Shown: positions 1,848-17,402 of the stretch, piece by piece
Layout of the letters: the number at the start of each line of letters is the position of its first letter
Position numbering within the stretch: the stretch's first letter is position 1
DNA from: Rhodococcus yananensis
Lineage (GTDB): Bacteria > Actinomycetota > Actinomycetes > Mycobacteriales > Mycobacteriaceae
Assembly (NCBI RefSeq): GCF_020515525.1
Contig: NZ_JAIYEP010000032.1
Span: forward strand, 1 to 46,174
Direction of reading: 5' to 3'
Length of the DNA stretch: 46,174 nucleotides
Made by a program: the position numbers and the translations under genes
The notes under the pieces: generated by a model
Told to the model about the DNA's origin: nothing
Seen by the model: only the letters and a program-made list of their open reading frames with translations
The model's database searches: none

Positions 1848-1874
1848 CGTCCCTCCCATCTCCTCGCCTGCCGC

Positions 1875-1902
1875 GATATAACCACGGTAAAAGCTGTGTA
1901 AA
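1875..1902 (-). promoter_or_regulatory. Candidate norB promoter
   Basis: On the minus strand TTTACA (1902-1897) is followed after 16 bases by TATATC (1880-1875), about 28 bases before the norB start. The segment is unusually A/T-rich for this genome. The nearby TTGAT/ATCAA half-site at about 1914-1918 lacks its partner, so no FNR/NnrR or NsrR site can be claimed. Confidence 0.45.
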
Positions 1903-1978
1903 TTCGGAACTTGTTGATACCACGTGCATTACAGATTTGTCGAGCCGCCCCTCGCCACCCCGGACGGATCGACCGCAA

Positions 1979-2166
1979 GGTGTCCGGACTCACCGGCCGG
2001 ACACCGATGTCCGGGGCTAGGATGCGCAGAAGACACACAGCATCCCGACGGTGAGTGGACCCGCGACATCGGGCGATTCCGCATACCCTCCGCACGACCG
2101 AACAGCGAACCCACGTCACCGTCGCATCGACGTGGACCCGCCGACGTGCACAATCTCACCGTCGGG
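1979..2166. repeat. Structured intergenic region with nested inverted repeats
   Basis: The 343-bp gap between norB and rarD (1848-2190) has no convincing gene but holds several perfect inverted repeats. One is a 9-bp hairpin (1979-1987 with 1997-2005). A second has 12-bp arms CCCGACGGTGAG (2044-2055) and CTCACCGTCGGG (2155-2166). A third is a 7-bp hairpin CCACGTC/GACGTGG (2111-2117 with 2129-2135) nested inside the second. A direct repeat GTGGACCCGC-like also occurs twice in it. It lies downstream of rarD and upstream of norB, so it could be a terminator region, a leader element or a small RNA. No known RNA family was recognised. Confidence 0.45.
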
Positions 2167-2190
2167 CAGACAACCCGACCGGCACGCGCG

Positions 2191-3132
2191 TCACCGGCGG
2201 CGCGCGTCCCCCCCGGCACCGGCGATCGCGGCCCGCGAGGTGCGGCGCGCGCGAACCAGCGCATCGGCGCTGTAGATCCCCAGCGCCACCCAGATGAGCC
2301 CGAACCCGATCCACCGCGACGCCGGCATGTCCTCGTGCAGCACCAACACACCCCACGCCATCTGCAGGCTCGGCGTCAGATACTGCAGCATGCCCAGCGT
2401 CGCCAGCGGCACCCGCTGGGCGGCGGCCCCGAACAGCAGCAGTGGCACGGCGGTGACAAGCCCCGCCGAAACGAGCAGCGCGGAATGCCCGCCGCCGTGC
2501 CCGAAGAACGTGCCGGTGCCCGTCACCGCGAGGAACACCAGGTAGCCGACGGCGAACGGCGCCGCGACCACCCCCTCACCGGCCAACGACGTACGCGGAT
2601 CCAGCGGAACGATCTTCTTGATCACCCCGTACGTGGCGAACGACAACGCGAGCGTCAGCGCGATGATCGGCGGCCGGCCGTAGTCGACGGTGATCACCAC
2701 GACCGCCGACGCCGCGACGACGAGCGCGATCACCTGCGGGGTCCGCAGTCTCTCCCGAAAGAACAACACCCCGAACAGGACGCTCACCAGCGGATTGATG
2801 AAGTATCCGAGGGCCGTCTCGACCACCCGGCCCGACACCACCCCGTAGATGTAGACACCCCAGTTCACCGCTATCGCCGACGACGCGGCAGCAACAAGGA
2901 GCCAGGTGCGTGCGCCCAATCCGCGCAGTGCGCCGAGCCGCCCCAGCACCGCAAGCAGGATCAGCATGAGCACGAGCGTCCACACCACCCGGTGTGCCAG
3001 GATCTCCACCGCACCCGACGGTTCGAGAAGACCGAAGAACGCGGGAAACATTCCCCACGACAGATACGCCCCGAGCCCGCAGAGCACGCCTGCCCGCTCG
3101 AACCCTCGACGCCCCTGATCCTTCGGTACCAC
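2191..3132 (-). CDS. rarD: RarD family EamA-type transporter
   Basis: The 313-residue product is a predicted ten-helix inner-membrane permease of the drug/metabolite transporter superfamily. The opening GVLCGLGAYLSWGMFPAFF, then AVEILAHRVVWTL and a second EamA half with GMLQYLTPSLQMAWGVL, is diagnostic of RarD. RarD proteins are often annotated as chloramphenicol-sensitive protein; the natural substrate is unsettled. Length is normal for the family. The start is a GTG at 3132 with a GAGG-like ribosome site just upstream. It marks the left edge of the accessory island. Confidence 0.9.
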   Translation of the reverse strand: MVPKDQGRRGFERAGVLCGLGAYLSWGMFPAFFGLLEPSGAVEILAHRVVWTLVLMLILLAVLGRLGALRGLGARTWLLVAAASSAIAVNWGVYIYGVVSGRVVETALGYFINPLVSVLFGVLFFRERLRTPQVIALVVAASAVVVITVDYGRPPIIALTLALSFATYGVIKKIVPLDPRTSLAGEGVVAAPFAVGYLVFLAVTGTGTFFGHGGGHSALLVSAGLVTAVPLLLFGAAAQRVPLATLGMLQYLTPSLQMAWGVLVLHEDMPASRWIGFGLIWVALGIYSADALVRARRTSRAAIAGAGGDARRR

Positions 3133-3143
3133 CGCCTCACCCT

Positions 3144-3159
3144 ACGGGTTCGGACCCGT
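3144..3159. terminator. Small hairpin beside rarD start
   Basis: ACGGGT and ACCCGT (6 bp) flank a TCGG tetraloop. It lies between rarD and the XRE gene, in the direction of XRE transcription, and may end or weaken readthrough. There is no clear T tract, so the role is uncertain. Confidence 0.3.
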
Positions 3160-3163
3160 CGGT

Positions 3164-3218
3164 GAGTGTGCAGTTCTGGTTGCCTGCAACGCGAAAATGC
3201 AACAACACCTGCACACTC
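3164..3218. repeat. 55-bp imperfect palindrome
   Basis: The outer arms GAGTGTGCAG (3164-3173) and CTGCACACTC (3209-3218) pair perfectly over 10 bp. After a 5-base mismatch the inner arms GTTGC (3179-3183) and GCAAC (3199-3203) also pair. The middle carries a repeated TGCAAC. It begins 18 bases beyond the stop of the truncated XRE gene and could be its terminator or a dispersed palindromic (REP/MITE-like) element. No second copy was found in the window. Confidence 0.5.
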
Positions 3219-3235
3219 GACCGCCGGGACCGGCG

Positions 3236-3403
3236 TCAGCCGAGCTTCGCCTCGAGGTTCGAGATCTGATTGCGGTGCATGCCCGTCAGCAACCCGAGGG
3301 CTTCCTGCGACAGGCCCCTGCGCTTGCGGAGCCACCGCAGACGTTGCGCGAACGACAGGCCGAAGCTCACCCACACGAGGTCGCTCTCGGTCTTGTTCGC
3401 CAC
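3236..3403 (-). CDS. Short XRE-type helix-turn-helix regulator, apparently truncated
   Basis: From a GTG at 3403 the product is 55 residues. The segment FAQRLRWLRKRRG-LSQEALGLLTG-MHRNQISNLE is a clear XRE fold: helix 1, helix 2 and recognition helix 3. XRE domains normally continue with helices 4 and 5 (for example, repeat-containing tail segments ending in L..ALAR AL-like residues). Here the protein ends four residues after NLE, and a 55-bp palindrome starts just beyond, so the 3' end may have been lost. An in-frame start at 3475 would overlap the divergent helicase gene and both operators. The GTG at 3403 with GGTGAG upstream is therefore preferred. Its position beside the shared palindromes suggests it is their repressor (inference). 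Confidence 0.6.
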   Translation of the reverse strand: MANKTESDLVWVSFGLSFAQRLRWLRKRRGLSQEALGLLTGMHRNQISNLEAKLG

Positions 3404-3422
3404 GGAACTCACCGTGTCCGAC

Positions 3423-3438
3423 GCACAACGTATTGTCT
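3423..3438. promoter_or_regulatory. Island operator O1
   Basis: GCACAACGTATTGTCT matches GCACAA-N4-TTGTGC with one degenerate end. It lies between the divergent XRE and helicase starts and contains the hexamer TATTGT (3431-3436), a plausible -10 box for the helicase gene. Confidence 0.6.
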
Positions 3439-3454
3439 GCACACCCCGTTGTGC
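3439..3454. promoter_or_regulatory. Island operator O2
   Basis: GCACACCCCGTTGTGC sits directly next to O1 and 2 bases after the possible -10 TATTGT. Extended by one base on each side it has perfect TGCACA/TGTGCA arms. It ends 14 bases before the helicase GTG. Confidence 0.65.
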
Positions 3455-3468
3455 ACCAGGAGAGATCT

Positions 3469-6400
3469 GTGACACCGCCCGACTTCACCGACCTGACCAG
3501 CGGCATCGTGCTCCACGGCGTCCGATCCGACGCCGTGACCATCCTGGCCGTCACCCGCCACGGATCCGACGTCGCGACCGTCGTGTTCCGCGAGGCATCG
3601 GGCGTCACCGGCGAGCAACTGATCTACCGCGACGACCTCGCGGGGCTGACGATCGTGCCGACCACCGCGCGGTGGTCGTTCACCGGCGACGGCGCCGACT
3701 TCCGCCTGGCCGCGGAGGCGCTACGCATCCGGATGGCGGGCCTGCACGACCCGATGCTCGCCGTGTCGTCGAGCGCGGTCCAGCCGCTCCCCCACCAGAT
3801 CCGCGCGGTCTACGGGGAACTGTTGCCGCGCATGCCTCTGCGCTTCCTGCTCGCGGACGACCCCGGTGCCGGCAAGACCATCATGGCCGGTCTCTACGCG
3901 AAGGAACTGATCCTGCGCGGCGACCTCACCCGGATGCTCGTGATCGCACCCGGTGGTCTCGTCGAACAGTGGCAGGACGAGCTCGCCGACAAGTTCGGCA
4001 TCGCCACCACCCTGCTCACCCGCGACCTCGTGTCCGCCGCACCCGACGGCAACCCCTTCACGGGCAATCCGATGCTCGTCGCCCGCATGGATCAACTCGC
4101 CCGCGACGAGGATCTGCTCGGGCACCTGGCAGCGAGCCGGTGGGACCTGGTGATCGTCGACGAAGCGCACCGCATGTCCGCGAACTGGTGGGGCGGCGAA
4201 CTGCGCGTGACCAAGCGGTACGCCCTCGGGAAGATGCTCGACGGGATCACACGGCACCTGCTGTTGATGACCGCTACACCGCATTCGGGCAGCGAGGAGA
4301 ACTACCAGGCCTTCCTGGCGTTGCTCGACCCCGACCGCTTCGAAGGCCGCTACCGTCCCGGCGCGCACTCCACCGACACCGGCGGGTTGATGCGGCGCAT
4401 GGTCAAGGAGGAACTCCTCACCTTCGACGGCAAACCACTGTTTCCCGAACGGGTCGCCGAAACCGTGCCCTATCGGCTCTCCGGCGCCGAACAGGAGTTG
4501 TACGAGGCGGTCACCCGCTACGTCCGGGAGGAGATGAACCGGGCCGACGCACTGCCCGACAGCCCGCGCACCCGCACCGTCGGATTCGCGCTCACCGTCC
4601 TGCAGCGGCGCCTCGCGTCGAGCACCCACGCCATCCTGCGCTCGCTCGTCCGTCGTCGCGCACGACTCACGACGCGACGCGCCGAACTGCTCGCGCCCCG
4701 GAGTGCGCCGACGTCGGGCGAAGAAGACTGGTCGAAACTGTCGGACCCGGACGAACTGAACGCCGCCGAACTCGAGGATCTCGAGGAGGACGTGGTCGAC
4801 GCGGCGACCGCGGCGCGGTCCGCCGCCGAACTCGACGCCGAGATCACCGCGCTCGGCGAACTCGTCGACCTCGCCACCGCCGTCCGCGACGCCGGTGAGG
4901 ACCGCAAATGGGTCGAACTGCGGTCACTGCTGCTCGACCGTCGCCTCCTACGCGACGACGACGGCAATCCCCGCAAACTCATCGTCTTCACCGAACACCG
5001 CGACACCCTCGACTACCTGCACGAGCGCATCAGTTCGGTGCTGGGCCGCGACGATGCCGTCCTGACCATCCACGGCGGGACACGCCGCGAGGATCGTCGG
5101 CGGGTACGAGAGGAGTTCACCCACGACCCGCGTCGCCTCGTCCTCCTCGCCACCGACGCCGCCGGTGAGGGCCTCAACCTCCAGGCCGCCCACTTGATGA
5201 TCAACTACGATCTGCCGTGGAATCCGAATCGGCTCGAGCAGCGCTTCGGCCGCATCCACCGCATCGGGCAACGGCACGTGTGCCGACTGTGGAACCTCGT
5301 CGCCGACGACACCCGCGAAGGTCAGGTGTTCACGCGGCTGCTCGAGAAGATGGAACAGCAACGCCGCGCCTACGGCGGCCGGCTGTTCGATGTCCTCGGC
5401 GAAGCCTTCACCGACCGGCCCCTGCGCGAGTTGCTCCTCGACGCGATCCGCTACGGCGACGACCCGGCCGTCCGCGACCGCCTCGACCGGGTACTCGACG
5501 AGGAAGTCTCCCACGGCCTGTCGGATCTTCTCGAGGAGCGTGCTCTGGCGCGTGAGGCACTCGATCCGCACGAGGTGCAGCGGCTCCGCAGGCAGATGGA
5601 CGAAGCCCGGGCACGCCGGCTGCAGCCGCACTACATCGAGCTGTTCTTCCGCGAAGCGTTCACCCGGCTCGGTGGGCGACTCACCCCGCGTGAACGGGGC
5701 AGGTTCGAGATCAGCCATGTTCCGGCAGTACTGCGGGACCATCAGCCGATCGGCGCGTGGCGTCCGCTGGCCGGGCGGTACGAGCGGGTGACCTTCGAAC
5801 CCGAACTCGTCGACGGCACCGTGCGCGCGGCACTGCTGGCGCCGGGTCATCCGTTGCTCGACACCGTCCTCGATCTGGCCCTCGAGCGGCACGGAGATGT
5901 GCTGCGCAGCGGCGCGGTGCTGATCGACCGCAACGATCCCGGGACCGCGGCCCGCCTCGTCGTCGCCCTGACCAGCGAGATCGTCGACGGCACCGGAACC
6001 ATGGTGAGCAAACGGTTCTCGTTCGTCACGCTCGGTGCCGACGGTGCGGTCGCCGATGCGGGACCGGCCCCCTACCTGGATGCCGAACCGCTGACCGGTC
6101 ACCGGGATGTGGTCGCCGCGGTACTCGACGAACCGTGGCTGGCGCAGGGCGTCGAGGAGATTGCCTCCCGGTGGGCGATCGTCCACGACCAGCCTCAGCA
6201 CCTCGAACAGGTGCGGGCGCGGCTGGTGCCGCAGATCGACAAGGCGCGCAGTGCCGTGCGGTCGCGGCTCATCCAGCAGATCAACCACCTCGACGGTGAG
6301 GCCGCTCGGCTGCGCGACGAGCAGGCCGCAGGCAAGGCCGCGAAGGTGCGGGTGTCGCCGGAACGGCTCCGCTCCCACGCCCGCGAACTCGAAGCTCGCC

Positions 6401-6927
6401 TCGAGGCGAGGGTCGCGCGCCTCGACGCCGAGTCGCGGTTGTCGGCGAAACCACCCCGCACCGTCGGGGCCGCGCTGATCCTCCCGGCCGGGCTGGTCGC
6501 CGCCACGGTTCCGGAGGCGGTGGCGGCGCACGCGGTCGACACCGAAGGCGTCGAACGGCGTGCGGTGGACGCGGTGCTGGCGGCGGAACGGAGGCTGGGC
6601 CGCGAGCCGGAGGAAATGCCGCACAACAACAAGGGATTCGACATCCGTTCGCATTCCGGGGAGACACCCACCGTGTTCGTGGAGGTCAAGGGCCGCCTCG
6701 CCGGGGCCGAGGACTTCTTCGTCACCTACAACGAGGTGCTGTACGGGAAGAACGCCGGGGCGCAGCACCGCCTCGCGTTGGTCGAGGTGCATCCCGAGGG
6801 CGCGCACCTCGACCGGGTCCGGTACATCGTCGACGCGTTCGCGAACATCGAAATGGGATCGTTCGCGGCCACCGGGGTGCGCGGCGACTGGGCGCGCGAA
6901 TGGGCGCGGGGCGTCGAACCGATCTGA
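3469..6927 (+). CDS. SNF2-family helicase with C-terminal DUF3883 (nuclease-like) domain
   Basis: This is a 1152-residue superfamily-2 ATPase, probably a DNA translocase of a defence or modification system. After a roughly 110-residue N-terminus come Walker A DDPGAGKT (about residue 130), the DEAH box (about 231), TATPHS (about 268), and a C-terminal helicase lobe with TDAAGEGLNLQ and RIHRIGQ (about 597). A long charged region leads to a C-terminal domain with GFDI (about 1055) and VEVKGR (about 1071). These match DUF3883 and the D...ExK pattern of PD-(D/E)XK nucleases. The GTG at 3469 is chosen because AGGAG lies 6 bases upstream and helicase-like sequence begins there; the open frame extends further upstream but that part is not protein-like. 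It meets the next gene convergently with a 7-bp gap. Confidence 0.9.
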   Translation: MTPPDFTDLTSGIVLHGVRSDAVTILAVTRHGSDVATVVFREASGVTGEQLIYRDDLAGLTIVPTTARWSFTGDGADFRLAAEALRIRMAGLHDPMLAVSSSAVQPLPHQIRAVYGELLPRMPLRFLLADDPGAGKTIMAGLYAKELILRGDLTRMLVIAPGGLVEQWQDELADKFGIATTLLTRDLVSAAPDGNPFTGNPMLVARMDQLARDEDLLGHLAASRWDLVIVDEAHRMSANWWGGELRVTKRYALGKMLDGITRHLLLMTATPHSGSEENYQAFLALLDPDRFEGRYRPGAHSTDTGGLMRRMVKEELLTFDGKPLFPERVAETVPYRLSGAEQELYEAVTRYVREEMNRADALPDSPRTRTVGFALTVLQRRLASSTHAILRSLVRRRARLTTRRAELLAPRSAPTSGEEDWSKLSDPDELNAAELEDLEEDVVDAATAARSAAELDAEITALGELVDLATAVRDAGEDRKWVELRSLLLDRRLLRDDDGNPRKLIVFTEHRDTLDYLHERISSVLGRDDAVLTIHGGTRREDRRRVREEFTHDPRRLVLLATDAAGEGLNLQAAHLMINYDLPWNPNRLEQRFGRIHRIGQRHVCRLWNLVADDTREGQVFTRLLEKMEQQRRAYGGRLFDVLGEAFTDRPLRELLLDAIRYGDDPAVRDRLDRVLDEEVSHGLSDLLEERALAREALDPHEVQRLRRQMDEARARRLQPHYIELFFREAFTRLGGRLTPRERGRFEISHVPAVLRDHQPIGAWRPLAGRYERVTFEPELVDGTVRAALLAPGHPLLDTVLDLALERHGDVLRSGAVLIDRNDPGTAARLVVALTSEIVDGTGTMVSKRFSFVTLGADGAVADAGPAPYLDAEPLTGHRDVVAAVLDEPWLAQGVEEIASRWAIVHDQPQHLEQVRARLVPQIDKARSAVRSRLIQQINHLDGEAARLRDEQAAGKAAKVRVSPERLRSHARELEARLEARVARLDAESRLSAKPPRTVGAALILPAGLVAATVPEAVAAHAVDTEGVERRAVDAVLAAERRLGREPEEMPHNNKGFDIRSHSGETPTVFVEVKGRLAGAEDFFVTYNEVLYGKNAGAQHRLALVEVHPEGAHLDRVRYIVDAFANIEMGSFAATGVRGDWAREWARGVEPI

Positions 6928-6934
6928 CGGCGCG

Positions 6935-8623
6935 CTACAGGCCGAGGGCTTCCCGCAGGCGTCGCGCGCTCATCGTCCCCGGTCGTTCGTCGTCGGGCAT
7001 GCTGCCGAGGAGGTTGAGCAGATCGTCGCGGCGGGTCGGATCTGCCGCGGCCTGTCGCGGGGTCAGGCCGTCGAGTGCCGGGATCTGTTCGTCGAGCCAC
7101 TGCTGCTCGTACGCCCGGATCTTCTCGTCGAGAAGTGCCGCGATCTCCGGGTCGTCGAGGTCGGGTTGCGGCGCCGGCCCGGACATTGCGCCCGCACGCC
7201 TCTCCGCGATCATCTGGGCGGCCGGGACCCTCCCCTCGCGCACCAGCGTGGCGCCCGGTGCGGCGCCGAGCACCAGGTGAACCATGTCCTCGTAATCGAA
7301 TTCACTCATCGCATCGACTTTGATCGTCCACGGATCGCGCGAGGTGTCGAGTACGACGACACCGAGCACGCGGTCGCCCTCGGTCCACGTCCACTCGTCG
7401 TCGTGCGCCGCACCGAAGCGGCGGCTGAGTTTGCGTCGGAGCGTCGACGACGGTGCGACCGTCCATGCCGACGAACAGAAGACCATCGGTTCTCCGGAAG
7501 CCGTCACGAACTGCGGTGGCCCGAACCGGGCGCTGAGGAATGCCACGAGCTGTTCTGGGGTCGCCTCGTCGTCGTCGAGGAGGTCGAGGAGGGGTTCGCG
7601 CTGCGGCAGCGAGACGGGTTCGGCGCCGCCGAAGATGTTCCAGACTCCCTCACCGACGGGCACCACCCGTGCGCAGTAGAACTCTCCTGCCCGCACCTGC
7701 CGGGTCGCCGCGCGTTCGGTGACGTCGATGCGGTCGCCGGTGCGCACGGCGCGCATGGTCATGCCCGCACCGGGGCGGACGTCCTCGACCTCGAACAGGG
7801 AACGCTCGATCAGCAGCCACTGCTGGGCCAGGAGTTGTTCGTCCGCGGGCAGGAGCGGGCCGCGGACGGCGATGAACTCGGCGAACGCGCCGCAGTCGAA
7901 CAGCACGACGTCCCAGACGAAGTCGTCGAGTCCGTCCTGAAGGTCGCTGTCGCCGGCGAGCCTCGGTGCGATCCGGATGCTCGCGAGTTCGACCAGGTGA
8001 TCACGATGATGCTGCGACTGCTCGAGGTATTGCCCCGCCTTCTCGTACAACCAGCGGGCGCGCTCGACGAGCGAGTACTCACGGTCGTCGCGGTATCGGA
8101 GCAGCACGTCGAACATCGGGTGTTCGCGCCCTCCGGGAATCCGGTCGTAGAGCGCGAGCCCGCGGAGCGCATCGCCGCGGTCGGAGGCGTACTGGGCCAG
8201 TCGCAGCAGCGCCGGGACGAACTCGCCGTCGGCGGTACACGAGCGTTCGAAGTGGCCTTCGGCATCGTCGATACGGCCCACTGCTTCGGCGGCGAGACCG
8301 ATGATCCACCGCATCGCCGCGGTGATCTGCGCGGGGCCGTGTTCGAGCAGCCACCGGGCGGCCTCGGCGATCGACTCGGGTTCGGTGCCGAAAATCTCGA
8401 ACACCGCATTCGCGACGCCGGTCGCAACAGCGGGGTCGGCGAGGTCGGCGAACAGGTCGGGTCCGAACAGATTCCAGGTGTCGACCGACCTGCGGGTGGC
8501 ATCGGCATCACCGGCACGGGAGCTGACGAGGGTGATGAACGCCGTCACCGCCGGGAGCGCATCGGCGCGCACCCCCAGGCTCGTCGCTAGCCGCTGGTCA
8601 TCGCCCGCTCCCCATTGCGTCAT
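6935..8623 (-). CDS. 562-aa protein resembling SEC-C-associated proteins, island component
   Basis: The first half is Ala/Leu-rich helical sequence with TPR-like spacing (for example AEGHFERSCTADGEFVPALLRLAQ). A middle segment, VRTGDRIDVTERAATRQVRAG through ARVVPVGEGVWNIFGG, resembles a small domain common in actinobacterial SEC-C-containing proteins. The C-terminus has LDEQIPALDGLTPRQAAADP, a recurring tail of that family. No cysteine-rich SEC-C motif is visible, so the metal-binding part is missing or absent in this branch. No catalytic motif is recognised. It is convergent with the helicase gene and divergent from the methyltransferase gene, with operators between the latter two. A structural or adaptor role in the system is inference. 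The ribosome site at 8623 is weak. Confidence 0.8.
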   Translation of the reverse strand: MTQWGAGDDQRLATSLGVRADALPAVTAFITLVSSRAGDADATRRSVDTWNLFGPDLFADLADPAVATGVANAVFEIFGTEPESIAEAARWLLEHGPAQITAAMRWIIGLAAEAVGRIDDAEGHFERSCTADGEFVPALLRLAQYASDRGDALRGLALYDRIPGGREHPMFDVLLRYRDDREYSLVERARWLYEKAGQYLEQSQHHRDHLVELASIRIAPRLAGDSDLQDGLDDFVWDVVLFDCGAFAEFIAVRGPLLPADEQLLAQQWLLIERSLFEVEDVRPGAGMTMRAVRTGDRIDVTERAATRQVRAGEFYCARVVPVGEGVWNIFGGAEPVSLPQREPLLDLLDDDEATPEQLVAFLSARFGPPQFVTASGEPMVFCSSAWTVAPSSTLRRKLSRRFGAAHDDEWTWTEGDRVLGVVVLDTSRDPWTIKVDAMSEFDYEDMVHLVLGAAPGATLVREGRVPAAQMIAERRAGAMSGPAPQPDLDDPEIAALLDEKIRAYEQQWLDEQIPALDGLTPRQAAADPTRRDDLLNLLGSMPDDERPGTMSARRLREALGL

Positions 8624-8663
8624 GCCCGCGACGGTACCTGCGCAGGCCGACAGCGACCCCGAC

Positions 8664-8669
8664 TATGCT
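8664..8669 (+). promoter_or_regulatory. Candidate -10 box of the DUF1156 gene
   Basis: TATGCT lies 2 bases before operator O3 and 65 bases before the methyltransferase ATG. The predicted transcription start (about 8676) falls inside the operator. No clear -35 element is seen. Confidence 0.4.
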
Positions 8670-8671
8670 CC

Positions 8672-8694
8672 GCACAACACGTTGTTCAACGTGT
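8672..8694. promoter_or_regulatory. Island operator O3, compound palindrome
   Basis: GCACAACACGTTGTTC (8672-8687) overlaps a second, perfect palindrome ACACGTTGTTCAACGTGT (8677-8694, 8-bp arms). The pair lies between the divergent 562-aa and methyltransferase genes, so one bound protein could control both. Confidence 0.65.
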
Positions 8695-8733
8695 GTTCCG
8701 TCATGCCCACGATCGAGAAGCGAGCACCACCCC

Positions 8734-11517
8734 ATGCCCGACGATGCACAACACGTTGTTCAGAAGCGAAAGCTGATCGAGGTGGCACTACCCCTCGAGA
8801 AGATCAACGCGGAGTCGGCTCGGGAGAAGTCCATCCGGCACGGGCATCCGTCGACGCTGCATCTGTGGTGGGCCCGGCGCCCACTCGCAGCTGCCCGCGC
8901 GGTGCTGTTCGCCCAGTTGGTGGACGATCCGTCCTCTCATCCCGATCGGTTCCCGACCGAGGACGCCGTCGCTGCCGAGCGCAAGCGCCTGCATGATCTG
9001 ATCGAGCGGTTGGTCGTGTGGGAGAACTCGAACAACGAGGAGTTGCTCCGCCGCGCGCACGAGGAGATCCTCGCCTCGACCGACGGCAACCCGCCACCCA
9101 TCCTCGATCCGTTCGCCGGCGGCGGAACAATTCCGCTCGAGGCCCAACGTCTGGGTTTGGAAGCGCACGCGTCCGATCTGAATCCGGTGGCCGTGCTGAT
9201 CAACAAGGCGTTGATCGAGATCCCCCCGAAGTTCGCGGGGCAGCCCCCGGTGTTCCCCGGCGCTGCGGAGTCGCAGATCAACAGCTGGCCGCGCGCCACC
9301 GGCCTCGCCGAGGATGTCCGCCGCTACGGGCAGTGGATGCGCGACGAAGCCGAGAAGCGCATCGGGCATCTGTATCCGAAGGCGAAGCTGTCGGACGGTT
9401 CCGAGGCGACCGTCATCGCATGGATCTGGGCGCGGACAGTCACCTGCCCCAACCCGGCCTGCGGCATCGCCATGCCCCTCGTCCGCTCGAGGTGGCTCGG
9501 CAAGAAGAAGGGCAAAGAAGCGTACGTCGTTCCGTCCGTCGAGGACGGGAAGGTGGTCTTCCGCATCGGTCACGACGTGAAACACGCACCGACCAAGGAG
9601 AACGACGGGACGGTCGGGCGGACCGGGGCGACGTGCATCGGGTGCGGTGCCACCATGAGCCTGGACTATCTTCGCACCGAGGGTCGGGCTGGACGTCTCA
9701 GCTGCCAACTGATGGCGACGGTCGCCGAGGGAAAACGAACACGGATCTACCTGGAACCTGATCCGGAGCACGAACGCGCCGCTCTTGTTTCCCGGCCCGC
9801 TGACGTTCCCGACGGCGAGATCGCCACGAACCCGCGATGGTTCTCCACCCCGGCGTTCGGGATGACAGACTTTGCCGATCTCTTCACGCCACGCCAGCTC
9901 ACCGCCCTCACCACCTTCAGCGACCTCGTGAGCGATGCTCGCGAGCACGTCCTCGCCGATGCCCTCGCGGCCGGAATGGAGGAGGGTGAGCGCCTCGAAG
10001 CCGGAGGAACCGGAGCCGCTGCGTACGCGGACGCCGTCGCGACGTACCTTGGACTTGTTGTCAGTAAGTGCACCAACCTGTCGTCTTCGATTACCAGTTG
10101 GATGAGTGATCGCGGAGCTTTCCGCGAGGTGTTCGCCCGTCAAGCCATTCCGATGGCATGGGATTTTGCAGAATCGTTCCTACTCGGCGAATCTGGAGGC
10201 TCGTGGCTCACAACTCTTGACAAGGCAGCACAGGTAGCCAATGCCTTACCGATCAACGAGGGCGTAGCCCGACAACAAAACGCGGCTTCCGAAATCGCTG
10301 GGAACACCGTCATCTCGACGGATCCGCCGTACTACGACAACATAGGATATTCAGACCTGTCCGACTTCTTCTACGTTTGGCTACGCCGCTCACTCCGGTC
10401 AATCCATCCAGAGTTGATGGGTTCTATGCTCGTGCCGAAGAGCGACGAACTTGTAGCGAATCCCTACCGGCACGGCGGAAAGGAAGGCGCACACAGATTC
10501 TTCGAGGAAGGATTTCGAGGGCTATTCACCCGTATGCGCAGTTCGGCCCGATCTGATATCCCAATCACGGTGTACTACGCCGTCAAACAAGCCGAATCAA
10601 CGAGCGAAGGAGAAGCCTCGACGGGATGGGAAACCATCCTTGAAGGTATTATTCGGGCCGGGTGGGTGGTCACCGCGACATGGCCGATGCGAACTGAAGG
10701 TAGCGGCAGGCTACTCGCGCGTGGCACCAATGCCCTTGCCTCCTCGATCGTCCTCACCCTGCGCCCGCGCCCGGATGACGCACCCACCGTCGACCGCCGG
10801 AGCTTCGTCGCCGCGCTCAAAGCAGAACTCCCCGAGAAGCTGAAGGAGTTGCAGCAGGGCGCGATCGCCCCGGTCGATCTGCCGCAGGCCGCGATCGGGC
10901 CCGGCATGGCCGTGTTCTCCCGCTTCTCCGGCGTCCTCAACGACGACGGATCGAAGATGACCGTCCGCGCCGCGCTCGCCCGCATCAACGAGATCCTCGA
11001 CGAGGTCCTCGCCGAACAGGAAGGCGACTTCGACGCCGACACCCGGTTCGCGATCGCGTGGTTCCGCCAGAACGGTTTCGAGTCGGCAGCTTTCGGTGAC
11101 GCCGACAATCTCGCTCGCGCCCGCAACACGTCGGTCGAACGGCTCGACCGCTCGGGCATCCTGACGAGCCGCGCCGGGAAGGTCACCTTGCTCTCCCCGA
11201 CGGCGCTCGACGAGGTGTACGCCGAGAAGCCGTACGATCCGTCCGCCGACTCGCAGATCAGCGAGTGGGAAGTCGTCATGCATCTGACCCGGCTGCTCAC
11301 CACGCTGGGCGTACCGGGTGCGGGCGCGATGCTGGCGCAGGTGCCGTCGTCGATCGACCGGGATCTGTGCAAGGAACTGGCGTTCCTGCTCTTCGCCATC
11401 GCCGAGGACCGTAGGCAGACCAAGATCGCCGTCGACTTCAACTCGCTCGGCACCGCGTGGAACGACATCGTCCGCGAGTCACGAAACTCGGCCACGCAGC
11501 TGTCGTTCGACAACTGA
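8734..11517 (+). CDS. DUF1156 adenine-specific DNA methyltransferase with Zn ribbon
   Basis: The 927-residue product is a predicted SAM-dependent N6-adenine (or N4-cytosine) DNA methylase. The N-terminus KRKLIEVALPLEKIN and HPSTLHLWWARRPLAAARA is DUF1156. SAM-binding motif DPFAGGGT is at 125-132 with DLNPVA following. Zn-ribbon cysteine pairs are CPNPAC (238, 243) and CIGC (301, 304). The catalytic motif DPPYYDN is at about 530, followed by YSDLSDFFYVWLRRSL. The ATG at 8734 starts just before the conserved domain; an open frame from 8665 would run through operator O3 and is not conserved-looking. The ribosome site is weak (GAGAAG/GCGAG). Bases about 10081-10680 are markedly less G+C-rich than the rest of the gene, suggesting a replaced segment. 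Confidence 0.93.
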   Translation: MPDDAQHVVQKRKLIEVALPLEKINAESAREKSIRHGHPSTLHLWWARRPLAAARAVLFAQLVDDPSSHPDRFPTEDAVAAERKRLHDLIERLVVWENSNNEELLRRAHEEILASTDGNPPPILDPFAGGGTIPLEAQRLGLEAHASDLNPVAVLINKALIEIPPKFAGQPPVFPGAAESQINSWPRATGLAEDVRRYGQWMRDEAEKRIGHLYPKAKLSDGSEATVIAWIWARTVTCPNPACGIAMPLVRSRWLGKKKGKEAYVVPSVEDGKVVFRIGHDVKHAPTKENDGTVGRTGATCIGCGATMSLDYLRTEGRAGRLSCQLMATVAEGKRTRIYLEPDPEHERAALVSRPADVPDGEIATNPRWFSTPAFGMTDFADLFTPRQLTALTTFSDLVSDAREHVLADALAAGMEEGERLEAGGTGAAAYADAVATYLGLVVSKCTNLSSSITSWMSDRGAFREVFARQAIPMAWDFAESFLLGESGGSWLTTLDKAAQVANALPINEGVARQQNAASEIAGNTVISTDPPYYDNIGYSDLSDFFYVWLRRSLRSIHPELMGSMLVPKSDELVANPYRHGGKEGAHRFFEEGFRGLFTRMRSSARSDIPITVYYAVKQAESTSEGEASTGWETILEGIIRAGWVVTATWPMRTEGSGRLLARGTNALASSIVLTLRPRPDDAPTVDRRSFVAALKAELPEKLKELQQGAIAPVDLPQAAIGPGMAVFSRFSGVLNDDGSKMTVRAALARINEILDEVLAEQEGDFDADTRFAIAWFRQNGFESAAFGDADNLARARNTSVERLDRSGILTSRAGKVTLLSPTALDEVYAEKPYDPSADSQISEWEVVMHLTRLLTTLGVPGAGAMLAQVPSSIDRDLCKELAFLLFAIAEDRRQTKIAVDFNSLGTAWNDIVRESRNSATQLSFDN
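8746..8761. promoter_or_regulatory. Island operator O4 inside the methyltransferase start
   Basis: GCACAACACGTTGTTC is identical over all 16 bases to the first part of O3. It lies at codons 5-10 of the methyltransferase gene, 74 bases downstream of O3, a spacing that could allow cooperative binding or looping, or act as a roadblock. Confidence 0.5.
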
Positions 11518-11535
11518 CCAGCAGAAAAGGCAGGA

Positions 11536-11574
11536 GCCCCAGGTCGCATACGAGGTAGAGGCGGCCTGGGGCAT
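11536..11574 (+). terminator. Hairpin after the methyltransferase gene
   Basis: GCCCCAGG and CCTGGGGC form an 8-bp stem starting about 20 bases after the stop codon, with inner partial pairing (TCGC/GCGG region). A short AT run (ATTC) follows. It separates the methyltransferase transcript from DUF499, consistent with the latter having its own promoter and operator. Confidence 0.55.
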
Positions 11575-11636
11575 TCACCGTCGACGGTACCCGAAGGCAG
11601 CGGTCCCCCGGTCGAGCGCCCATCGTCGCGACTCCG

Positions 11637-11642
11637 TAATGT
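11637..11642 (+). promoter_or_regulatory. Candidate -10 box of the DUF499 gene
   Basis: TAATGT lies 5 bases before operator O5 and about 49 bases before the DUF499 GTG. No clear -35 element is seen. Confidence 0.4.
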
Positions 11643-11647
11643 GCTCT

Positions 11648-11663
11648 GCACAATTTGTTGTGC
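11648..11663. promoter_or_regulatory. Island operator O5
   Basis: GCACAATTTGTTGTGC is the most symmetrical copy of the motif. With one more base on each side it is a perfect 7-bp-arm palindrome (TGCACAA/TTGTGCA). It lies just before DUF499. Confidence 0.7.
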
Positions 11664-11690
11664 AAAAAGTCGGGAGTTGAGGGGAACATC

Positions 11691-14600
11691 GTGGCGCTGT
11701 CCAACCGCGACCGGATCGGCCGGACATTCGAGCTTCTCGGGCCCGCTCTCGACCAGTTCCACACCTACGTCCTCGGGAAGCACCTGCAGCCCGGCCAGGA
11801 CTGGACCGCCCTGCTCGAGGCCCGCGATACGGCGCGCGGCAGCACCGGGAAGTCGTATTCGGGTACCGATCCGCAGGACGGACTGCGGATGATCACCGAA
11901 CAGATCCCCAACCAGATCAAGAAGGGGTGGTATCCGTTCACCGACCACCTCTCGCGCACCGAGCAGTCCTGGGCCACCGAACTACGCGACGTCCGCAACA
12001 AGTGGGCACACAACAGTTCCTTCACCGCCGACGACGCCTACCGGGCTCTCGACACCGCCGAACGGTTCCTACGAGCCATCGGCGCACCCGACCAGGCCGA
12101 CGAAGTGCGGCGGTCCCGCGTCGACCTGATGCGCATCAGCTCCGAACGCGAAGACCGCAAGGTCGTCAAGGCACCGGGCGTCGCGGAGATCGGCGCGGCC
12201 GGGCTCGAGCCGTGGCGCCTGGTACTGCGTCCCCACCGCGACGTGCAGAGCGGCAACTTCCACGCCGCAGAATTCGCCGCCGACCTCGCGATGGTCTCAC
12301 GCGGCGAAGGCGACGCCGAGTACACCGACCCCGTCGAGTTCTTCCAGCGCACCTACCTCACCCAGGGGCTCCGCGACATCCTCGGCCGCGCGGTACGCAG
12401 ACTGTCCGGCGATGTGAACGCCGCACCGGTCATCAACCTGCAGACCAACTTCGGTGGCGGCAAGACACACTCGATGCTGGCCGTCTACCACATCGCGTCG
12501 GGCAGGCCCCTCGCCGACTACCCGCAGGACGTGCAGGATCTCCTGGGCGGCACCGAGCTTCCCACCGCACGGCGGGTCGCGCTCGTCGGCACCCAGATCA
12601 AAGCCGGCGCCGTCAAGACGATGCCCGACGGCACACGCATCAACACCATCGGCGGACTGCTCGCCTGGCATCTCGGTGGGGCCGAGGGCTACGCGATGAT
12701 CCGCGAATCGGACGAGAACCGACTCAACCCGGGCGGCGAGGCCCTGCGCGAACTGTTCGAGCGGTTCGGGCCGGCAGTGGTACTCATCGACGAATGGGTG
12801 GCGTACGCGCGTCTGCTGCACGGACACGACGAGCTTCCTGATGGCACGTTCGACGCACAATTCACCTTCGCACAGGCACTCACCGAGGCCGCCAAAGCCG
12901 TTCCCGGCACCCTCATCCTCATCTCCATCCCGGCGTCCGCGGAGATGAAGGACGGCGAATACGTCGGCGACGAAGAAGAAGTGGGCGGCGAGAACGGCCG
13001 CGAAGCCCTGCGCATGCTCCGCAGCGCGATCGGACGTGTCGCCGACCAGTGGCGCGCCGCCGACGCCGAGGAAAGCTTCCACATCGTGCGCCGTCGCCTG
13101 TTCGAAACACCCGACGGGCAAGCCCTCGCCAAGATCAACGCGACCGCCGATGCGATGGTCGCCTACTACCGCGACCACAGCACCGAGTTTCCGCGTGAGG
13201 TCCGGGAGAACACCTACAAGGACCGCATCAAGCAGTGCTACCCGATCCACCCGGAACTGTTCGACCGGCTCTACGAGGACTGGTCGACACTCGACCGCTT
13301 CCAACGCACCCGCGGCGTGCTGCGCCTCATGAACACCATCGTCGGGCAGTTGTGGCGCGGCAACGACGCCGCACCGCTGATCATGCCCGGATCGGTCCCC
13401 CTCGACGAGGACAAGGTGATCACCGAACTCACCCAGTACCTCGACGACCGGTGGAAAGCCCTCATCGACACCGACGTCGCCGGCACACGGTCGGCACCCG
13501 CCGAAGTGGACAAGAACAACGCCCTTCTCGGACAACGCTTCACCACCCAACGCCTGGCCTGCGCCGTCTTCATGGGTTCCGTTCCCACCCTCAAGACCGC
13601 CCACAAGGGCATCGAGAAGCAACGCGTGTTCCTCGGGGCGGCCCTGCCCGGCGACATCCCCGGCAACTTCCACTCGGCGCTCAACCACCTCGCCGACACC
13701 GCCACCTACTTCTACAATTCCGGCTCCACCTACTGGTACGACACGCAAGCCAACACCACCCGCACCGCACGCGACTACGCCGAACAACTCCACAAGGAAG
13801 ACGTCTGGGCCGAAGTCGTACGCCGGTTGCAGACCCACCGTCGTACCGCACCCGACGGATTCACCGCCGTCCATGTCGCCCCGGAATCATCCGCCGACGT
13901 TCCCGACGAACAGGAAGTGCGGCTCGTGATCGTGCCGCCGTCGCACACCCACAGCAAGGGCGGCCCCGACGCCGTCGACTGGGCCAGGGACGTCACCGAA
14001 CACCGCGGTAGTGCCGCACGCACCCACCGCAACATGGTGGTGTTCCTCGCCGCCGATGCCGCGCGCTGGCGTGAACTCGAAGCCGCCGTGCGGGACTTCC
14101 TCGCGTGGTCGTACGTCCGCGACAACGCCGACAAGGACCTCGACCTCACCGCGTCGCAGCGGGAGCAGGCCGTCGACCGTGTCGCCACCCACGACCGCAC
14201 CGTGCACGACCGCCTCCTCGAGACCTACCAGTGGGTGCTCGCGCCCATTCAGCCCGACGCGACGCGCCCCCTGCTGATCGAGACGAAGAAGACGACCGCC
14301 GGCGACAACCTGTCCGACCGCGCAGCCACATGCCTGCGGAACGAGGGCTGGCTGACCACGCAACGTGGCGCGGCCCTGATCCGTCACGACCTGAACGGCA
14401 CGCTGAAGGCCGCGTGGGATCGCGACGGACACATCGACTTCGGCACGCTCTTCGCGCTGTACACCACCTACCCGTATCTGGCGCGGCTGCGTGACCGGCA
14501 AGTCCTCGAAGACGGCGTGCTGTCGGTGTACGACGAGATGCACTGGCAACCCACCGGATTTGCATTCGCCGACAGCTGGGACGGTGAAAAGTACATCGGG

Positions 14601-15116
14601 CTCGTCCTCCCCTCGGACACGGCAACACCGCCGCAGGTCACCGATTCGCTGCTGCTGGTCCAACCCGATCGTGCAGAAGCACAACGCGAACGCGAAGCCG
14701 ACGAGTACGGCGGAGGTGCCACCGGTGGGTCCGATGGGTCCGATGGGTCGGGTAGGTCAGGCGGAGAGGTTTCTCCGGGTGACGACGGATCCAGCACGGG
14801 ATCGAATGGCGGAACATCCGGAGGCACGGGCACGGGCACGGGCACGGGCAGCGGAACCGGCGGTACCCCACACAAACCGGTGAAGCGTCGGTTCTTCGGA
14901 AGCACCACCCTCGATCCGAGCTTCTACGGCCGCGACTTCAACCGGATCACCGACGAGATCGTCCAGCACCTTGCGGCCGTCGACGGTGTGGAACTCGAGG
15001 TGCGCATCGAGATCTCCGCCCGCGCCCAGGACGGTTTCGACGATGCGAAAGTCCGGACGGTGAGCGAGAACGCCACGACACTCAAGTTCGAGCAGTCCGG
15101 CTTCGAGGAGTACTGA
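11691..15116 (+). CDS. DUF499 AAA-type ATPase with N-terminal Swt1-type HEPN domain
   Basis: The 1141-residue product begins with an all-helical domain of about 120 residues ending in RDVRNKWAHN, followed by AERFLRAIGA. This fits a Swt1-type HEPN domain, and R102/H107 form the RX4H signature seen in many HEPN ribonucleases. Then comes the DUF499 ATPase: Walker A TNFGGGKTH (about 252-260) and Walker B VVLIDEW (D367, E368). Near the C-terminus is a Gly/Ser/Thr linker encoded partly by tandem repeats (14727-14846), followed by the conserved segment RRFFGSTTLDPSFYGRD. The GTG at 11691 is chosen for its GAGGGG ribosome site. DUF499 and DUF1156 genes are recurrent neighbours in defence islands. RNase activity and its trigger are inference. 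Confidence 0.92.
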   Translation: MALSNRDRIGRTFELLGPALDQFHTYVLGKHLQPGQDWTALLEARDTARGSTGKSYSGTDPQDGLRMITEQIPNQIKKGWYPFTDHLSRTEQSWATELRDVRNKWAHNSSFTADDAYRALDTAERFLRAIGAPDQADEVRRSRVDLMRISSEREDRKVVKAPGVAEIGAAGLEPWRLVLRPHRDVQSGNFHAAEFAADLAMVSRGEGDAEYTDPVEFFQRTYLTQGLRDILGRAVRRLSGDVNAAPVINLQTNFGGGKTHSMLAVYHIASGRPLADYPQDVQDLLGGTELPTARRVALVGTQIKAGAVKTMPDGTRINTIGGLLAWHLGGAEGYAMIRESDENRLNPGGEALRELFERFGPAVVLIDEWVAYARLLHGHDELPDGTFDAQFTFAQALTEAAKAVPGTLILISIPASAEMKDGEYVGDEEEVGGENGREALRMLRSAIGRVADQWRAADAEESFHIVRRRLFETPDGQALAKINATADAMVAYYRDHSTEFPREVRENTYKDRIKQCYPIHPELFDRLYEDWSTLDRFQRTRGVLRLMNTIVGQLWRGNDAAPLIMPGSVPLDEDKVITELTQYLDDRWKALIDTDVAGTRSAPAEVDKNNALLGQRFTTQRLACAVFMGSVPTLKTAHKGIEKQRVFLGAALPGDIPGNFHSALNHLADTATYFYNSGSTYWYDTQANTTRTARDYAEQLHKEDVWAEVVRRLQTHRRTAPDGFTAVHVAPESSADVPDEQEVRLVIVPPSHTHSKGGPDAVDWARDVTEHRGSAARTHRNMVVFLAADAARWRELEAAVRDFLAWSYVRDNADKDLDLTASQREQAVDRVATHDRTVHDRLLETYQWVLAPIQPDATRPLLIETKKTTAGDNLSDRAATCLRNEGWLTTQRGAALIRHDLNGTLKAAWDRDGHIDFGTLFALYTTYPYLARLRDRQVLEDGVLSVYDEMHWQPTGFAFADSWDGEKYIGLVLPSDTATPPQVTDSLLLVQPDRAEAQREREADEYGGGATGGSDGSDGSGRSGGEVSPGDDGSSTGSNGGTSGGTGTGTGTGSGTGGTPHKPVKRRFFGSTTLDPSFYGRDFNRITDEIVQHLAAVDGVELEVRIEISARAQDGFDDAKVRTVSENATTLKFEQSGFEEY
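14727..14846 (+). repeat. In-frame short tandem repeats in the DUF499 linker
   Basis: GGGTCCGAT (9 bp) is repeated from 14727, and GGCACG (6 bp) is repeated four times at 14823-14846. They encode Gly-Ser-Asp and Gly-Thr runs. Unit lengths are multiples of three, so slippage would change linker length without breaking the frame. Confidence 0.7.
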
Positions 15117-15289
15117 CGTCCCGACAGTCCGTGGGTGGACACCTACGTCGCCGGGCGCGCGACCGTCGTGACCATATGGGCCAGGTCGTACCCCGCCGGC
15201 GTCGGCGTCCGGTGTGTCTCCACCCACCCGAACCTCACCGTGTGACCGATGAGCAGAACCTGTCGGTGGGCGATGCCATACTCCCGGGC

Positions 15290-16714
15290 ATGCACTCGGA
15301 GGGTGGGGTCCTGGAGCAGATCGCGTCACTGCGCGACGCCGTCGCCGCGCTGTCCGCCGCCGACCTCACCGCACTCTCCGACACCGCTGTCCTCGACGCG
15401 CTGCGCGACCTCGAAGCCACACGCCGCATGCTCGCCGGCGTCGACCACACGCTCGTCGTGCAACTCACCGAGCGGAAACTGCACACCCAGCACGGGGTTC
15501 GCTCACCGCAACGGCTCCTCGTCGACATCCTGCGGGTCTCGCGCCGTGACGCAGCCGAACGCGTGCAGGCCGCACGGCTGCTCGGCCACTGGCACCGACC
15601 GGACGGATCCACCGCGCCACCGAAACACCCCGCCACCGCCGCTGCTGTCGCGGACGGTGAAGCGAGCGCAGAGCATGCGCGCGTGGTGAGCAAAATTCTG
15701 CACAAGCTGCCCGAATCCGTGTCCGACGAGAAACGCACCGAGGCCGAACAGACGCTCGCCGAACTGGCACGCACCGCCACCCCGGAAGACATCCTCAACG
15801 CCGGGCACCACCTTCTCGCGCACCTCGACCCGGACGGATCGCTCACCGACGAACGCGACCGGCGACGGCGCCGCTCCGTGTACCTGCGCGGCCAAGGAGC
15901 CGACCTCATGTCGCGATTCAGCGGCGAACTGGACCCGACGGCACGGGCGATGTTCGACGTCATCCTCGCGAAATGGGCTCGGCCCGGCATGAACAACCCC
16001 GCCGACCCCGACTCCCCGACCGGAGACTGCGACGCACCGTCCGTGAACCGTGACGCGCTGGTCGCGGCGGCCGCGCGCGATACCCGCACCGCCGCGCAAC
16101 GCAATCACGACGCGTTCGCCGCGATGTGCCGGTTCGTCGTCGAAACCGGCGTTCTCGGTCGACACCGCGGTCTGCCCGCCACAGTGATCATCACGATGAG
16201 CCTCGACCAACTGGAGAAAGCCGCCGGTGTCGCCACCACCGCCACCGGAGGCACCCTGCCCATCAAAGACGCGCTGGCGCTCGCCGAACACGCCCACCCC
16301 GTGCTCGCCCTGTTCGACCACACCGGGAAGCCCCTCCATCTGGGTCGAGGCAAGCGACTCGCCAACGTCGACCAGCGGTTCGCACTGATCGCCTGGCAGC
16401 GAGGATGCACCCGGCCCGGATGCTCGACCCCCGCCGCGCACTGCGCCGTGCACCACCAGACCGAATGGGAACGCGGCGGCGGCACCGACATCGAGAACCT
16501 GTCCCTGGCGTGCGACGCGTGCCATGCGCTGGTGACCAACACCGACGCGGGCTGGACCACCGCGCCGTCACCGCGCACCGGCCGGCCCACGTGGACAGCC
16601 CCCGTGCGTATCGACCCGGAGCGGCGTCCTCGTGTCAACATCCGTCACCACCCCGAGGAAATCCTCCGGCGTGCCCGAAGCCGGATCGTGCCGGACGAGA
16701 GCGACGATCCGTGA
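15290..16714 (+). CDS. DUF222/13E12-family HNH endonuclease-like protein
   Basis: From the ATG at 15290 the product is 474 residues. The N-terminal two thirds is the helical DUF222 region (from LEQIASLRDAVAAL on). The C-terminus has CTRPGCSTPAAHCAVHH, then an Asn in IENLSLACDACH, giving the Cys/His/Asn set of an HNH nuclease. Such genes are multicopy in actinobacteria and often linked to mobile or variable regions. Alternative in-frame GTG starts are at 15242 and 15266; none has a good ribosome site. It lacks the island operator, so membership in the defence system is doubtful. Confidence 0.85.
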   Translation: MHSEGGVLEQIASLRDAVAALSAADLTALSDTAVLDALRDLEATRRMLAGVDHTLVVQLTERKLHTQHGVRSPQRLLVDILRVSRRDAAERVQAARLLGHWHRPDGSTAPPKHPATAAAVADGEASAEHARVVSKILHKLPESVSDEKRTEAEQTLAELARTATPEDILNAGHHLLAHLDPDGSLTDERDRRRRRSVYLRGQGADLMSRFSGELDPTARAMFDVILAKWARPGMNNPADPDSPTGDCDAPSVNRDALVAAAARDTRTAAQRNHDAFAAMCRFVVETGVLGRHRGLPATVIITMSLDQLEKAAGVATTATGGTLPIKDALALAEHAHPVLALFDHTGKPLHLGRGKRLANVDQRFALIAWQRGCTRPGCSTPAAHCAVHHQTEWERGGGTDIENLSLACDACHALVTNTDAGWTTAPSPRTGRPTWTAPVRIDPERRPRVNIRHHPEEILRRARSRIVPDESDDP

Positions 16715-16757
16715 GGGTGCGCACCCTCGTCGATCACCGTTCGAGATCATCCTCGCT

Positions 16758-17399: not shown

Positions 17400-17402
17400 A
17401 CC

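Follow-up and report, generated by a model that had tools for sequence, protein, structure and literature searches.

A helicase, methylase and ATPase locus in Rhodococcus yananensis

The locus described here lies in a 46,174-nucleotide stretch of Rhodococcus yananensis DNA (contig NZ_JAIYEP010000032.1, positions 1 to 46,174 of the forward strand; hereafter the window), where a first-pass annotation made from the letters alone had proposed an uncharacterised four-gene modification or anti-phage system. The four long genes are all uninterrupted open reading frames (ORFs) at the location claimed for them. Judged by their sequences, the helicase, methylase and HEPN-DUF499 genes are an already described Hma (Type-1 DUF499-centred BREX-related) system, a relative of BREX, and we refer to them as hmaA, hmaB and hmaC; the remaining gene encodes a 562-residue protein, p562, and separates hmaA from hmaB on the opposite strand.

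3469..6927, + strand: hmaA, SNF2 helicase with a C-terminal NOV_C/DUF3883-type nuclease-like domain (HmaA 1330.7 bits, NOV_C 57.6 bits)
6935..8623, - strand: p562, 562 amino acids, a relative of TPR/SEC-C proteins without SEC-C, probably a resident or passenger gene
8734..11517, + strand: hmaB, DUF1156 DNA methyltransferase (HmaB 1114.4 bits, DUF1156 109.6 bits)
11694..15116, + strand: hmaC, N-terminal Swt1-like HEPN plus DUF499 AAA+ ATPase (HEPN_Swt1 108.9, DUF499 86, HmaC 875.8 bits)

The frames of the three hma genes are open over 3166-6927(+), 8665-11517(+) and 11655-15116(+), respectively; by extent of homology hmaA more likely starts near 3469, and the probable starts of hmaB and hmaC are 8734 and 11694. 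PADLOC and Pfam scans covered eight ORFs from 84 to 18137, the PADLOC matches of the helicase being the best 25 of 49 families. Pfam cut-offs were exceeded by Helicase_C, SNF2 and NOV_C in hmaA, by DUF1156 in hmaB and by HEPN_Swt1 and DUF499 in hmaC, which, with NOV_C taken as the DUF3883-type tail, upholds the SNF2-DUF3883, DUF1156 and HEPN-DUF499 assignments of the annotation.

Three of the four genes form a described Hma system

The PADLOC search that the annotation had suggested returned a described system for three of its four genes. HmaA, HmaB and HmaC were the top matches of the three + strand genes, and scores of 876-1331 bits are far beyond chance; the anti-phage assignment is borne out by these matches, and the label "uncharacterised" falls to the same scores (1331, 1114 and 876 bits), a match to a described system being what the annotation had itself named as refuting its proposal, an outcome that applies here to these three genes. 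The original Hma report counts the three-gene operon 1,638 times, across 26 phyla (Payne 2021, PMC8565338). PMC12839542 (2026) renames Hma as Type-1 DUF499-centred BREX-related systems and counts 2446 taxa, of which 1370 carry the HEPN fusion, so the HEPN variant seen here is no difference from that class. A 2013 survey of HEPN domains had already placed HEPN-DUF499 in an operon with restriction-modification components and an SNF2 helicase fused to DUF3883, "a novel REase domain" (restriction endonuclease; PMC3710099), and this three-part core, with its HEPN and helicase-nuclease fusions, appears across PMC12839542, PMC8565338 and PMC3710099.

Set against these descriptions, the window shares with Hma (PADLOC HmaABC, PMC8565338) the helicase, methylase and ATPase matches and the A-B-C order on one strand, and departs from it in the opposite-strand gene between hmaA and hmaB, in the local palindromes and XRE-like ORF described below, and in an N-terminal HEPN domain of hmaC that lies outside the PADLOC HmaC match, which begins at residue 184. 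With the Type-1 DUF499-centred system of PMC12839542 it has in common the HEPN-DUF499 ATPase, the DUF1156 N6-methylase and the SNF2 helicase with a C-terminal PD-(D/E)XK nuclease, and differs from the description in that text by p562 between hmaA and hmaB; Type-2 marks (a DUF3780 gene, an HKD domain on the helicase) had no Pfam match in the eight ORFs. The Ava_2192-type operon (Anantharaman 2013, PMC3710099) likewise combines a Swt1-family HEPN-DUF499 AAA+ protein, restriction-modification components and SNF2-DUF3883, and the domains named there show no difference from the window. The ATPase, methylase and helicase of Type-3 BREX (BrxC, BrxXI, BrxHII) are homologous according to PMC12839542, whereas a PglZ match is absent among the families listed for the eight ORFs.

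That the locus is instead DISARM or canonical BREX is very improbable. The helicase does match the PADLOC models of DrmD (386.7 bits) and BrxHI/II (327.3 bits), but the HmaA model outscores both at 1330.7 bits and NCBIfam DrmD falls under its curated cut-off (371 vs 610). PglZ, BrxC, DrmB and DrmC had no match among the families listed for the eight ORFs between 84 and 18137 (for the helicase, the best 25 of 49), and among those families the DrmA and DrmD models match the helicase only, far under the HmaA score. The annotation's remark that PglZ, BrxC and DrmABC are lacking is accurate for the families listed for these eight ORFs, save for the DrmA match on the helicase.

We aligned the catalytic motifs across the genus and order loci, window included, leaving out the later class loci and three interrupted copies of hmaB. 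Walker A, DEAH and, in the nuclease-type tail, the D and ExK positions were conserved in 17/17 aligned HmaA sequences, R-x4-H (in the HEPN domain), GGGKT and LIDEW in 20/20 HmaC sequences, and DPF(A/C)GGG together with DPPY, a motif of the amino-methylase type, in 16/16 HmaB sequences; the window has DPFAGGG and DPPY intact, and by these residues its hma genes look functional. HmaB is called a 5-methylcytosine (m5C) methylase in the text of PMC8565338, whereas HmaB here carries DPPY.

Collectively, we consider it likely that the locus is an Hma defence system in which HmaB marks, HmaC scans, HmaA cuts, the HEPN domain acts as a backup and p562 stands outside the core. From the motifs and published proposals, the division of labour would most likely run as follows: HmaB marks host DNA through N6-adenine-type methylation, the AAA+ ATPase of HmaC assembles on DNA and scans along it, HmaA moves along invader DNA that lacks the mark and cleaves it by means of its C-terminal PD-(D/E)XK-like domain, and the HEPN RNase of HmaC would serve as a backup effector that halts growth. 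In the proposal of PMC12839542, the methylase protects, the ATPase scans, the helicase-nuclease cuts and HEPN is the last resort, and the annotation's pairing of a DUF3883 cutter with a DUF1156 protector was accordingly already in print (PMC12839542, PMC3710099). Family membership, the intact motifs and the absence of p562 from other loci are what the present analysis brings to the Hma reading; the find is mostly ordinary, an apparently intact Hma locus of a known kind whose fourth gene is probably a bystander.

Hma loci and their cargo across actinobacteria

HmaC was present in 4/18 genomes of the genus (E-value 1e-3), 20/397 of the order (E 1e-50) and 30/394 of the class (E 1e-80), the window's own genome being included in each count. 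The comparison took in 42 loci (labels beginning with L denote loci): the window and 41 others, of which 22 were fetched from the order and genus samples and 19 from among 25 further places in the class. All three hma genes were seen in 32 of the 42, counting L144, whose hmaA is partial, and L147, whose hmaA is cut by the contig end. Co-occurrence, the second check suggested by the annotation, held for hmaA, hmaB and hmaC and failed for p562, found in none of the 41 other loci. Among the ten remaining loci, L071, L091, L141 and L152 lie near contig ends, L087, L088, L089 and L159 are truncated, frame-broken or divergent, and L085 and L158 are taken up below.

The spacing exceeds 500 bases between hmaA and hmaB in 14/32 loci and between hmaB and hmaC in 8/32, and the gaps between hma genes in these other loci are cargo slots. 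Among the slots inspected, GmrSD_N genes occupy those of L073, L074, L075, L077 and L081; other cargo comprises Schlafen-AlbA_2 (L077, L081), a DUF222 gene (L075) and a DUF6615 gene (L083). We observed that GmrSD_N recurs between hmaB and hmaC in these same five Mycobacteriales loci, making it a candidate accessory effector.

p562 is probably a resident or passenger gene

Searched with tblastn (E 1e-3), p562 was absent from all 41 other actinobacterial Hma loci fetched. The family itself is common in the genus, occurring in 16/18 genomes (own included) at lower similarity and mostly as open frames of ~630-750 amino acids elsewhere in the genome, and relatives in other genera are longer proteins. 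The long relatives inspected carry a SEC-C motif (CWCGSGRKYKxCH) and TPR-like repeats, with SEC-C confirmed by Pfam in two, and recall Rv0613c/MSMEG_1285 (PMC6032435), a candidate resemblance only. Neither the SEC-C motif nor the N-terminal region is present in p562 or in the Rhodococcus sp. HM1 homologue, and p562 had no Pfam match above cut-off; we rejected its identification as a SEC-C protein, and the annotation's "SEC-C-like" label survives only in the sense of kinship. An AlphaFold model of p562 built from two sequences was poor (mean predicted local distance difference test, pLDDT, 52.7; predicted template modelling score, pTM, 0.29), and the best solved-structure match reached E 0.22.

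The surroundings of the island bear on the origin of p562. To its left lie an EamA transporter gene, which we take to be rarD, and then a NorB/COX1-type gene; to its right, a DUF222-HNH gene precedes a pseudouridine synthase, a Y-family polymerase and a class I tRNA synthetase (all by Pfam), the last three presumably RluA, DinB and IleRS. In this Rhodococcus-group actinobacterium the Hma locus sits between rarD and the gene preceding the pseudouridine synthase. The closest p562 homologue, 63% identical, occupies the same chromosomal slot in Rhodococcus sp. HM1, in the same orientation and adjoining rarD, in a genome with no HmaC match (E 1e-3). Both slot ends were visible in 14 other congeners, and p562 was not found in the fetched slot of any of them (E 1e-3); ten had a gap of under 140 bases, two a gap of ~0.5 kb and two one of 2.5-3 kb. 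Across the order sample, p562 relatives (E 1e-50) occurred in 14/397 genomes and coincided with HmaC only in the window's genome and in genome G294, where one contig carries HmaC at 3.09 Mb and a close p562 relative at 1.55 Mb, ~1.5 Mb apart.

We rejected p562 as a conserved fourth Hma gene on the 41/41 absences and because the HM1 genome, which holds the homologue, gave no HmaC match; the annotation's four-gene set is not supported. p562 could still be a lineage-specific fourth component or an accessory effector embedded between hmaA and hmaB: it is physically embedded in the locus, as accessory defence genes often are, several slots of other loci hold GmrSD_N or Schlafen-AlbA_2, one palindromic site sits between the p562 and hmaB starts, a 13,341-base contig from a Gordonia metagenome-assembled genome (MAG) carries p562 together with hma, and Septu embedded in Hma is a published case of a system within a system (PMC12255303). 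Such a role is nonetheless unlikely, as p562 is missing from all 41 other Hma loci, shares a genome with HmaC in only two of the order genomes and is far from it in one of those, has its closest homologue in the same slot of a genome without an HmaC match, and belongs to a family spread at lower similarity across most of the genus. Taken together, these sequence comparisons suggest that p562 is an unrelated neighbour, probably a resident or passenger gene and not a demonstrated partner. In the simplest history, p562 would have been resident before the hma genes settled on either side of it, a single cassette thus having had to flank a resident gene on both sides.

The slot looks like an insertion hotspot, with p562, hma, a small ORF and the 2.5-3 kb inserts of L119 and L124; the small ORF is common to three congeners (L118, L121, L093), where it occupies the interval from rarD to the gene that precedes the pseudouridine synthase. 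The Gordonia contig, L127 (1-13341), tells against a resident p562: it is 100% identical to window 3281-16621, p562 included, and we observed that its ends fall inside both edge genes of the island. Elsewhere in the window, long matches to the same MAG have 65-82% identity, and rarD had no match in the stretch fetched beside that MAG's own pseudouridine synthase gene. Either the whole island was transferred recently or L127 is a mis-binned contig.

The right edge of the island is formed by one further gene:

15131..16714, + strand: DUF222-HNH gene (Pfam DUF222 213.7 bits, HNH 31.1 bits)

Three Hma loci have a DUF222 gene within them or at their edge, each in a different place (window 15131-16714, L075 5197-7104, L086 3681-5132), those of the window and L086 also with an HNH match, and the window's genome has two DUF222 copies. 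The DUF222-HNH gene is not a consistent Hma part, though DUF222 also occurs at L075 and L086.

Natural interruptions of hmaB

Several observations weigh against the Hma reading in the form given above. L085 and L158 keep hmaB and hmaC intact, and hmaA is not in the fetched flank of either. Should L127 prove a genuine transfer, p562 would travel with the island. In 3/32 loci, a segment with a DDE transposase or integrase-core gene interrupts hmaB while hmaA and hmaC stay open (L074, 7775-9440; L082, 8425-9978; L090, 10456-12140). A simple restriction-protection pair should not tolerate the loss of hmaB unless hmaC is silenced by the insertion or the cells have other protection; were HmaA to attack any DNA lacking methylation, these strains should suffer, short of such silencing.

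The break falls within methylase motif I in L090 and beyond the methylase motifs in L074 and L082. An intein or intron was rejected as the cause, since the inserts carry transposase or integrase domains, and a rough look for target-site duplications flanking the three inserts turned up nothing convincing. We did not count L149 and L155, which contain runs of N, or L142, L146 and L157, whose short frame breaks are possible sequence errors. The frame break of L146 falls at a run of ~nine G near position 9150 and may be a sequence error or a phase-variable tract.

These interruptions hint at an alternative in which Hma works like BREX, with HmaB licensing or aiming the attack, such that its loss disarms the system instead of killing the cell. 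We regard this as a real possibility without favouring it. It is consistent with the open hmaA and hmaC of the three loci and the motif I break of L090, with the published homology of Hma to Type-3 BREX components (PMC12839542), with the dependence of Type I BREX defence on BREX-site binding by the methyltransferase (PMC11842806) and with the making of a pglX deletion strain (PMC6326788). Against it, there are only three interrupted loci, the insertions may be polar on hmaC, and in L074 and L082 the break falls past the methylase motifs. At the level of sequence, the interruptions would fit BREX-like licensing better than a restriction-modification pair that is lethal without its methylase, and we treat the hmaB losses as a modest new lead next to the preferred reading, in which HmaB marks host DNA.

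Palindromes and an XRE-like ORF beside the hma genes

The left edge that the annotation had given the island, 3236, is the end of a small XRE-like helix-turn-helix (HTH) ORF divergent from hmaA, and a family of palindromes accompanies the hma genes.

3236..3403, - strand: XRE-like HTH ORF, 55 amino acids, probably truncated; divergent from hmaA, stopping shortly past the recognition helix
3422..3455, no strand: palindromic repeats CGCACAACGTATTGT and TGCACACCCCGTTGTGCA, between the XRE-like ORF and hmaA
8671..8688, no strand: palindromic site CGCACAACACGTTGTTCA, between p562 and hmaB
8745..8762, no strand: second palindrome copy TGCACAACACGTTGTTCA, within the first hmaB codons; operator role uncertain
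11647..11664, no strand: perfect palindromic site TGCACAATTTGTTGTGCA, upstream of hmaC

The ORF scores 35.2 bits against Pfam HTH_31 and 31.6 bits against HTH_3, both above cut-off, and covers these profiles up to positions 36 of 64 and 31 of 55, respectively. The palindrome TGCACAA-N4-TTGTGCA is perfect before hmaC, has one mismatch before hmaA and two before hmaB, and recurs with one mismatch in the first codons of hmaB. At <=3 mismatches the window holds 5 sites vs 0.65 expected, a number that 0/100 shuffles reached. At <=2 mismatches the whole genome holds 8 sites, 4 of them in the island, and a reversed-pattern control gave 13, so the genome total is not raised and it is the clustering alone that stands out; with the pattern drawn from one of the sites, the chance of 3 of the other 7 falling within 12 kb is ~8e-7.

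A second set occurs in L086, from another genus of the family, where a changed palindrome, TGCACAC-N4-GTGTGCA, stands once before each of hmaA, hmaB and hmaC (5268, 8799 and 11710), these being the three sites with <=2 mismatches in its 19.9 kb; across the other 40 loci the L086 pattern had one site (<=2 mismatches), in L141. A shared 7-4-7 palindrome in the 160 bases before all three genes was found in 2/30 loci, the window and L086, with L144 and L147 excluded for incomplete hmaA; by thresholds set after both sets had been seen, such sharing arose in 0/200 shuffles each for the window and L086 and in 4/6,000 shuffles over all 30 loci. In L086, the region upstream of hmaA yielded no XRE ORF. 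In L075 a longer divergent XRE-type ORF (1347-1760) occupies the same place beside hmaA, and CCCAA-N4-TTGGG occurs before hmaA and hmaB (1665 and 7442), the only two sites at <=1 mismatch in the fetched stretch. L075 lends weak support, because its 18-base palindrome at <=3 mismatches has 2 sites vs 0-5 in 20 shuffles, showing no enrichment, and because 9/200 shuffles matched the sharing it shows between hmaA and hmaB alone.

Two broader proposals were rejected. The window's exact palindrome is not a general Hma operator, as 22 other loci show scattered matches with 2-3 mismatches and <=2 per locus; nor is the XRE-like ORF a general Hma part, since a search of the sequence preceding hmaA in 17 loci yielded it in the window and, less strongly matched, in L075 only. 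A narrower proposal is that some actinobacterial Hma loci may have a circuit of their own, in which a small XRE-type regulator would act, like the controller proteins of restriction-modification systems, on locus-specific palindromes before hmaA, hmaB and hmaC, regulator and sites changing together between loci; the methylase under such control would license the attack beyond protecting the host, making hmaB losable without killing. We think this combined reading rather doubtful, although the recurrence of a palindrome set in L086 raised our estimate of it. A limited literature search, PMC12839542 included, found no report of a controller or operator of Hma systems, and the palindromes and the XRE gene are a lead that looks new.

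Significance

Collectively, these findings strike off the candidate "new system" and place the locus in a described and widespread family. The use that remains is narrower: the locus offers a predicted control circuit that is open to testing, and the natural interruptions of hmaB make it directly testable whether the Hma methylase is protective or licensing.

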